This document shows positions 4,641-37,723 of a stretch of 64,000 nt of DNA, in pieces; the stretch's first letter is position 1, and every line of letters starts with the position of its first letter. A model generated the notes under the pieces. That model made no database searches. It was not told the DNA's origin and was given only the letters and a program-made list of their open reading frames with translations. Source of the stretch: an uncultured Paracoccus sp. (GTDB lineage Bacteria; Pseudomonadota; Alphaproteobacteria; Rhodobacterales; Rhodobacteraceae); contig NZ_CANMEH010000002.1 in assembly GCF_947496875.1 (NCBI RefSeq), forward strand, positions 124,001-188,000, read 5' to 3'. A program made the position numbers and the translations under genes.

Positions 4641-4666
4641 GGAACCACGCCGCTCGCCGGATTGTT
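4641..4666 (+). promoter_or_regulatory. EcfG-type (general stress response) promoter-like motif GGAAC-N17-TGTT
   Basis: ggaac cacgccgctcgccggat tgtt; 56 nt upstream of the 24-aa ORF at 4723. Confidence 0.55.
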
Positions 4667-4722: not shown

Positions 4723-4797
4723 ATGAATTCGATCATCTACATCGTCGGCCTGATTGTTGTCGTGCTGTTCATCCTGTCCATGCTGGGCCTGCGCTGA
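4723..4797 (+). CDS. 24-aa single-TM microprotein (paralog of 36534-36608)
   Basis: ATG to TGA: MNSIIYIVGLIVVVLFILSMLGLR; GAGGAAA RBS-like sequence upstream; 19/24 identical to the second copy. Confidence 0.75.
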   Translation: MNSIIYIVGLIVVVLFILSMLGLR

Positions 4798-4954: not shown

Positions 4955-6775
4955 ATGGACATCCGCAACATCGCCATCATCGCCCATGTGGACCATGGCA
5001 AGACCACGCTCGTGGATCAGCTGCTCAAGCAGTCCGGCAGCTTCCGCGAGAACCAGGCCGTGGCCGAGCGGGCAATGGATTCCAACGACATCGAACGTGA
5101 GCGCGGGATCACGATCCTGGCCAAGGCCACGTCGGTCGAGTGGAAGGGCACCCGCATCAACATCGTCGACACCCCTGGCCACGCCGATTTCGGCGGCGAG
5201 GTGGAGCGGATCCTGTCGATGGTGGATGGCGTCTGCCTGCTCGTCGACGCGGCCGAAGGGCCGATGCCGCAGACCAAGTTCGTGACGTCCAAGGCCCTGG
5301 CACTGGGGCTGAAGCCGATCGTCGTTCTGAACAAGGTGGACAAGCCCGCGGCCGAACCCGACCAGACCCTGAACGAGGTCTTCGACCTGTTTGCCAATCT
5401 GGGTGCAACGGACGAGCAGCTGGATTTCCCGCATGTCTATGCGTCGGGGATCGGCGGCTGGGCCGACGAGGTGCTGGATGGCCCCCGCAAGGACCTGTCG
5501 GCGCTGTTCGACCTGATCCTGCGCCACGTCCCGCCGCCCGCGCAGCTGACTCAGCAGGACCAACCGTTCCGCATGCTGGCCACCACGCTTGGCGCCGACC
5601 CGTTCATCGGCCGGATCCTGACCGGTCGGATCGAGGCCGGTACCGTGCGCGCGGGCGACACGCTGAAGGCGCTGTCGCGTGAAGGCGAACGAATCGAGCA
5701 GTTCCGCGTCTCCAAGGTCCTGGCGTTCCGCGGCCTGACCCAGACCACGATCGACTCGGCCGGGGCCGGCGACATCGTGACGCTGGCGGGGATGAGCAAG
5801 GCGACGGTGGCCGATACGCTGTGCGCCCCCGAGGTCGATGCGCCGTTGCAGGCCAAGCCGATCGATCCGCCCACGATCAGCGTGACCTTCGGCATCAACG
5901 ACAGCCCGCTAGCCGGGCGGGACGGCACCAAGGTCCAGTCCCGGGTCATTCGCGAACGGCTGATGCGCGAAGCGGAAACCAACGTGGCGATCCGGGTCGA
6001 GGACACGCCGGGCGGCGACGCCTTCGTGGTGTCGGGCCGGGGCGAACTGCAGATGGGCGTGCTGATCGAGAACATGCGCCGAGAGGGCTTCGAACTTTCG
6101 ATCAGCCGTCCGCGGGTGATCTTCCGCGAGGAGAATGGCGAAAGGCTCGAGCCGATCGAAGAGGTCATCATCGACGTCGATGACGACTATACCGGTGCCG
6201 TCATCGACAAGCTGACCGGCGCACGCCGCGGTGATCTGGTCGAGATGCGTCCGGCCGGTCACGGCAAGACGCGGCTGGTCGCCCATGTCCCGTCGCGCGG
6301 GCTGATCGGCTATCAGGGCGAGTTCATGACGGATACCCGCGGCAACGGGGTGCTGAACCGCATCTTCCACGACTGGGCCCCCTACAAGGGCCCGATCGCC
6401 GGACGCCGTCAGGGTGTACTGATCTCGATGGAGGATGGCGTGTCCGTCGCCTATGCGCTGTGGAACCTGGAAGAGCGCGGCAAGCTGTTCATCGGCGCGC
6501 AGGAGCAGGTCTATCAGGGCATGATCATCGGCGAGCATTCCCGCGACAACGACCTGGAAGTGAACCCGCTGAAAGGCAAGAAGCTGACCAACGTGCGCGC
6601 CTCGGGCACGGACGAGGCGGTGCGCCTGACCACCCCGGTTAGGATGAGCCTCGAGGAAGCGATCGCCTATATCGACGACGACGAGCTGGTCGAGGTCACG
6701 CCCAAGGCGATCCGGCTGCGCAAGCGGCATCTGGACCCGCATGAGCGCAAGCGACAGGCCCGCGCCGACGCCTGA
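4955..6775 (+). CDS. typA: Translational GTPase TypA/BipA
   Basis: [28 protein letters not shown]...[15 protein letters not shown]...[16 protein letters not shown]; classic TypA. Confidence 0.97.
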
Positions 6776-34148: not shown

Positions 34149-36334
<2,186 letters not shown>

Positions 36335-36453: not shown

Positions 36454-36478
36454 GGAACTTGCGCCGTGGGCTGACGTT
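36454..36478 (+). promoter_or_regulatory. EcfG-type promoter-like motif GGAAC-N16-CGTT (exact consensus)
   Basis: ggaac ttgcgccgtgggctga cgtt; 55 nt upstream of ATG at 36534. Confidence 0.65.
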
Positions 36479-36533
36479 CCGTTGCATGGGGACCACCCGA
36501 CGCCGGTCCCACCCATTTCGCAAGGAGTTGGAG

Positions 36534-36608
36534 ATGAGTTCAATCATTTATCTCGTCGGCCTCGTCGTGGTCATCCTGTTCATCCTGTCGTTCCTGGGGC
36601 TGCGCTAA
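36534..36608 (+). CDS. 24-aa single-TM microprotein (paralog of 4723-4797)
   Basis: MSSIIYLVGLVVVILFILSFLGLR; strong AAGGAG RBS; TAATG overlap with next gene. Confidence 0.8.
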   Translation: MSSIIYLVGLVVVILFILSFLGLR

Positions 36609-37723
36609 TGGTGCGGGAAACGGCCGTGACGCCGCCGCGCGGACCAGGGCCCGAGGGCTCGGACCGCAGCTATATCGACTGGGCTGCCATCCTGGCGGGC
36701 GCCGCCATCGCCGCCGGCAGTTCGGTGGTGTTGACCACCTTTGCGGCAGGGCTGGGGCTTGGCGCCATCTCGGCCGATCCGACCGAGGGCATCAGCGGCT
36801 TCGGCCTGGTTCTGACCGCCCTCTTCACGGCCATCTCGATGGTCGCGGTCTACATGCTTGGCGGCTACATCGCCGGCCGCATGCGCAAGCGGGTCGATGC
36901 GGCCGACAAGGATGAGATCACCGCCCGCGACGGCATCCACGGGCTGGTCGTCTGGGCGTTGGGCATGCTGGTCGGCGGCATGCTGGCCATGAACGCCGTC
37001 GGCAGCGGCGCCCGCGCCGTGGGTTCGGCAGCGGGCACGGCCGTCGAGGCGGCGGGGTCCGCCGTCGGCGGCGTCGCGCAGGGCGCCGGGCAACTGGCCG
37101 GTGGCGCGATCTCGGGCGTCGGCCAGATGGTCGGCGGTGCGGCATCGGGGGCCGGTCAGCTGGCCGCCGGCGCAACCGAGAATGCGGGCGAGTTGAGCGA
37201 CATGCTGCCCGAAGGCATGCAGGCCAATCCGCTCGACTATCTCACCGACGGATTGCTGCGGCAGGACGAACCCGGCGCCGGCTATTCCGAGGCGGCGCTG
37301 CGCCGCGAGGTGTCGGGCATCATCATGACGCTGGTGCGCACGGGCGAGATCAGCGAGGCGGACCAGCAGTATCTGCGCTCCGCCGTCGCCGCGCGGACCG
37401 GTCTGTCCGAGGCCGAGGTGAACCAGCGCGTCCAGCAGGCAATCGCGCAGGCCCGGCAGATCCGCCAGGAGGCAGAGCAGCGGCTGGAAGAAGCCGAGCA
37501 GGCGCTGCAGCAGGCCCGCCAGGAAGCCGAGGCCGCGGTCGCGAACGCCAAGGAGGAGGCCATCCAGGCAGCCGAGAACACCCGCCAGGCCGGCGTGCTG
37601 ACCGCCTTCCTTCTCGCGGCCTCGTCGCTGCTGGCCGCGGTCGCCGCCTATATCGGCGCCGTTCGCGGTGGGCGTCACCGCGACGAAAACAAGCTGTGGG
37701 GCGGTCTGCGCTATCACCGCTGA
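36608..37723 (+). CDS. Membrane protein with Gly/Ala-rich linker and long coiled coil
   Basis: ATG overlaps microprotein stop; SYIDWAAILAGAAIAAGSSVVLTTFAAGLGLGAIS..., Ala/Gly/Gln repeats, coiled coil RQIRQEAEQRLEEAEQALQQARQEAEAAVANAKEEA, C-terminal TM. Confidence 0.82.
   Translation: MVRETAVTPPRGPGPEGSDRSYIDWAAILAGAAIAAGSSVVLTTFAAGLGLGAISADPTEGISGFGLVLTALFTAISMVAVYMLGGYIAGRMRKRVDAADKDEITARDGIHGLVVWALGMLVGGMLAMNAVGSGARAVGSAAGTAVEAAGSAVGGVAQGAGQLAGGAISGVGQMVGGAASGAGQLAAGATENAGELSDMLPEGMQANPLDYLTDGLLRQDEPGAGYSEAALRREVSGIIMTLVRTGEISEADQQYLRSAVAARTGLSEAEVNQRVQQAIAQARQIRQEAEQRLEEAEQALQQARQEAEAAVANAKEEAIQAAENTRQAGVLTAFLLAASSLLAAVAAYIGAVRGGRHRDENKLWGGLRYHR

Follow-up and report, generated by a model that had tools for sequence, protein, structure and literature searches.

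Among described systems, the locus analyzed here comes close to the promoters of the alphaproteobacterial general stress sigma factor EcfG (also named sigma-EcfG, RpoE2 or SigT) and, on the protein side, to small membrane proteins of one helix with stress or accessory roles, such as AcrZ, KdpF, CydX and YohP. The known EcfG regulons are rich in hypothetical genes, and open reading frames as short as the one considered here are usually missed. In Sphingomonas, the EcfG motif was described as GGAAC-N17-20-GTT (PMC6599016). In this work, we analyzed a 64,000-nucleotide stretch of DNA from an uncultured Paracoccus sp. (the window), which contains two copies of a 24-aa microprotein, A and B, each preceded by a motif of this kind (Table 1). 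The combined comparative evidence described below leads us to assign a probability of about 0.88 to the reading of the site upstream of copy B as a functional EcfG-dependent promoter driving a conserved operon of the general stress response, which encodes the microprotein and a coiled-coil membrane protein.

Table 1. Features of the two microprotein loci in the window
Feature	Coordinates	Strand	Basis or context
EcfG-type promoter of microprotein B	36454..36478	+	exact match; conserved 5' of homologues
-35 GGAAC, N16 spacer, -10 CGTT	-35, 36454-36458; -10, 36475-36478	+	
Ribosome-binding site AAGGAG of microprotein B	36522..36527	+	sequence
24-aa single-helix microprotein B, MSSIIYLVGLVVVILFILSFLGLR	36534..36608	+	pN/pS, GRAVY, homologues
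371-aa membrane/coiled-coil protein	36608..37723	+	hydropathy, AlphaFold model
Copy A promoter GGAAC-N17-TGTT	4641..4666	+	sequence
Microprotein copy A, MNSIIYIVGLIVVVLFILSMLGLR	4723..4797	+	5' of typA/bipA (4955-6775)

The initial annotation had pointed to an exact GGAAC-N16-CGTT sequence 55 nt before the start codon of microprotein B, and inspection of the forward strand confirmed both the match (GGAACTTGCGCCGTGGGCTGACGTT) and the gap between CGTT and the ATG. The transcription start is predicted from the promoter position at approximately 36484-36488. The unit is flanked by the divergent obgE gene (start at 36322) and by selO (37817), and neither a sigma-70-like promoter nor a terminator was found in the intergenic region. 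The leader gave no Rfam match, and the interpretation of this segment as an RNA element was rejected. A GGGACC/GGTCCC hairpin in the leader was also discarded as a candidate: its stability is no better than that of shuffled sequences (z -0.66), and copy A has no evident counterpart. The motif of copy A differs by one letter from CGTT and lies 56 nt before its ATG.

To assess conservation of the motif, 80 named loci were gathered by a scan for the microprotein coding sequence itself, so that their promoters were not selected for, and the 160 nt upstream of each of 103 non-redundant alphaproteobacterial copies were compared with Markov shuffles and with the reversed pattern. The GGAAC-N16/17-[CT]GTT motif is present in 50 of the 103 regions (0.27 in shuffles, 0 for the reversed pattern), and the relaxed form GGAAC-N16/17-NGTT in 69 (0.23 in shuffles). 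Since the same motif precedes the same microprotein in many Alphaproteobacteria, the promoter very probably belongs to the alphaproteobacterial stress response. Across the 12 Paracoccus loci compared, GGAAC does not vary and GTT is always kept; the pairwise identity is 1.0 for the -35 element and 0.81 for the -10 element, compared to 0.28-0.31 for the spacer and flanks. Retention of the core within a randomized spacer and flanks argues for a selected footprint rather than mere common descent. The close agreement between the two copies in the window (55 and 56 nt), which the initial annotation had emphasized, is correct as a measurement; conserved spacing is not a rule, however, because the motif-to-ATG distance at orthologous sites ranges from 24 to 84 nt.

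About one third of the alphaproteobacterial copies have no GGAAC-N16/17-NGTT motif, and some of these carry near-variants (GGAAC...CGATT or CGCTT, GCAAC...CGTT). This third includes two Cereibacter-like loci (L013, L014) with EcfG present, and the Brucella/Ochrobactrum group. Six copies of the latter group (L047, L055-L058, L060) have no GGAAC and contain at the corresponding place a GAAAC-N16-AGTT-like block, possibly a diverged promoter. The motif was found in none of the 10 copies from beta- and gammaproteobacteria. Near-identical microproteins lacking the EcfG motif occur in Accumulibacter, Halomonas/Vreelandella and Kushneria (L062, L068, L082, L084, L102, L108, L110, L112, L117); these copies are presumably transferred, ancestral or convergent and under other control.

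The regulatory genes expected for an EcfG promoter were identified by profile searches as an intact locus, with nepR, phyR and ecfG together on contig C4 of the same genome. The scores are 46 bits for NepR (PF18557), 45 bits for PhyR (PF22233), and 340 bits for EcfG (NF009198, cut-off 270). The nepR gene itself is preceded, at 39 nt, by GGAAC-N17-TGTT, a form identical to the promoter of copy A. Exact matches are also located upstream of two DUF892 genes, a PNPOx/GSP26-like gene, an Fe/Mn superoxide dismutase gene, an HU/IHF gene, and a DUF3072 gene. Among family genomes, the motif is present at 21 of 25 loci in those bearing EcfG/NepR versus 0 of 4 in EcfG-less ones (Fisher p=0.003), the latter sample consisting of four relatives only, with one 92%-complete draft in 370 contigs set aside (G155; motif present, EcfG not found). 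Two genomes that encode EcfG (G066, G187) were missed by the NepR search. The microprotein also co-occurs with NepR in the family (26/33 vs 59/165 genomes, p=6e-6). Altogether, the site combines the motif spacing, the cognate EcfG, NepR and PhyR, a short distance to the gene, and conservation upstream of the microprotein that tracks EcfG, which supports the original assignment to the EcfG type.

GGAAC-like -35 elements are common to several ECF groups, and the promoter could be real yet recognized by a different ECF sigma factor of similar -35 preference, outside the PhyR-NepR-EcfG response. Second EcfG-like factors encoded near the microprotein in three other genomes (G026, G051, G091) are in line with this explanation. 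However, the motif includes an EcfG-type -10 element of the same kind as that at nepR, the Paracoccus genome encodes a single EcfG-like factor at E<=1e-20, and motif presence tracks EcfG, so that control by another ECF factor appears unlikely. In the three genomes just mentioned, the gene for the second factor (46-48% identity) is located 2-7 kb from the microprotein (G026:C2, G051:C4, G091:C34), whose copies there have no motif and, in two of the genomes (G051 and G091), begin with GTG.

The product of the first gene is strongly hydrophobic (GRAVY 2.3). Its codon-position identities (0.70/0.93/0.49) and a pN/pS of 0.31 across 121 distinct coding sequences point to translation and to purifying selection on the product. 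Searches against Pfam and NCBIfam gave no match above cut-off, and a search of open-licence papers gave no match to its sequence. The microprotein is present in 33 of 198 genomes in the scan of the family Rhodobacteraceae and in 30 of 385 genomes of the class. Its usual site in Paracoccus is the 5' side of typA/bipA; about 13-15 Paracoccus and related loci retain this linkage, some of them with the 371-aa gene in between (P. sanguinis L091, and L039). In the window, copy A occupies the typA site without the larger gene, and copy B, with the larger gene, is located elsewhere. In the same-genus genome G023, both the microprotein and its promoter sequence are identical to those of P. sanguinis L091. 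At another uncultured Paracoccus locus (L109:2400-2575), two tandem microproteins, MHSIIYIVGLVVVVLAVISFVS and MNSIIYIIGLVVVVLFILSMLGLR, follow one EcfG motif.

The stop codon of microprotein B overlaps the start of the 371-aa gene (TAATG), a two-gene arrangement that the initial annotation of the promoter left out. The 371-aa protein contains four hydrophobic helices, a variable stretch rich in glycine and alanine, and a long charged coiled coil, and its AlphaFold model is helical with a mean pLDDT of 77. The best Pfam match was below cut-off and covered the coiled coil only, no NCBIfam family was found, and the fold search of the model returned no Foldseek match at E<=0.001 and no convincing PDB match. 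In Rhizobiales, Rhodospirillales and Rhodobacterales, 62 loci carry a homologue of this protein that starts between -8 and +51 nt relative to the end of the microprotein gene. Among homologues recovered independently from the class, those with better scores mostly follow the same microprotein; in front of several more distant homologues, the small protein is a different, hydrophobic one of 25-28 aa. At five loci with distant homologues (L162, L164, L166, L169, L171), the preceding microprotein is the unrelated MGRxILLWLLGxPIPxIILLALFW, and at L169 GGAAC-N17-CGTT lies 32 nt upstream of it. The occurrence of an unrelated microprotein at the same place before other members of the 371-aa family hints that the microprotein and the coiled-coil protein may form a functional unit with an exchangeable small subunit. 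The larger protein, nearly always adjacent, is encoded in only 8 of 30 family genomes with the microprotein; its absence from the other 22 indicates that the microprotein does not need it. Similar gene pairs also occur on Paracoccus plasmids. A tblastn search for plasmid copies of the microprotein gave no match, the query being too short; they were located via the neighboring gene, and in two Paracoccus plasmid records they are not annotated in the gene table.

The tight arrangement of the pair, with overlapping codons here and close spacing throughout the 62 loci, would also fit a case in which the promoter acts as described and the 24-codon frame serves mainly as a leader whose translation is coupled to, or adjusts, that of the 371-aa protein, its peptide sequence being irrelevant. 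Strongly conserved amino acids with free third positions speak against such a role, as does the existence of the microprotein without the downstream gene, both in 22 of the 30 relatives' genomes and as copy A, and we regard the leader function as quite improbable.

Counts of the bare pattern were rejected as evidence in their own right. The window contains two exact GGAAC-N16-CGTT sequences compared to 0.67 +/- 0.83 in shuffles, and the 3.95-Mb draft genome contains 67 compared to 50 for the reversed control; many of the genomic matches fall inside coding sequence, as judged by a rough codon-bias test. The other exact match in the window (34523-34547) falls, in antisense orientation, inside an apparent proB gene and is probably due to chance. 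Thus, the exactness noted in the initial annotation holds, but on these counts it is not by itself good evidence. For a single upstream stretch of 160 nt, the probability of containing an exact match by chance is approximately 0.0008, so that the position of the match before microprotein B is unlikely to be random. Taken singly, the exact match is weak evidence; it is the comparative data, themselves sequence-based, that make the case strong. A chance match in a high-GC genome, with the microprotein expressed from another promoter or not at all, would agree with the small excess over the reversed control and with the matches inside coding sequence, but is very improbable in view of the recurrence of the motif, with its spacer scrambled, at 69 of 103 homologous sites (0.23 expected) and of purifying selection on the microprotein.

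For the EcfG-dependent promoter, the following model is proposed. Under stress, PhyR would sequester NepR, and the freed EcfG would guide RNA polymerase to GGAAC-N16-CGTT. The transcript, beginning near 36485, would carry the microprotein and the overlapping 371-aa protein. The microprotein would insert in the inner membrane as a single helix and serve as a small stress subunit, acting with the downstream four-helix/coiled-coil protein where present, and elsewhere alone or with another partner. From the genomic data we infer the EcfG dependence of the start, its induction by stress, and translation of the microprotein.

As far as searches of open-licence papers show, the operon appears to be an undescribed conserved target of the general stress response; published EcfG regulons may already list the product of the larger gene as hypothetical. 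More tentatively, the locus could represent a widespread, essentially unannotated alphaproteobacterial stress module, in which an EcfG-driven 24-aa microprotein acts together with coiled-coil membrane proteins of a new family. The strongly conserved EcfG promoter across several orders would make the microprotein a specific candidate core effector of the general stress response, with the linked membrane protein as a testable partner.

Among annotated families, the Thivi_2564 family membrane protein (NF041949) shows a weak similarity (15.4 bits) between its final 23 positions and the microprotein family; membership was rejected at a cut-off of 33 bits, NF041949 being twice as long. The microprotein resembles AcrZ, KdpF, CydX and YohP in its very short length, its one hydrophobic helix, and its association with a larger membrane protein by operon or genetic linkage, and differs from them in that no sequence similarity was demonstrated and no Pfam or NCBIfam model matched above cut-off; by analogy alone, it might act as an accessory subunit in the manner of AcrZ, KdpF or CydX. 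Unlike the described EcfG promoters, the one reported here has an unannotated microprotein operon as its target and is predicted from sequence. Like them, it has the GGAAC-N16/17-CGTT form and a complete phyR/nepR/ecfG locus, and it shares its motif with other typical stress genes of the same genome.
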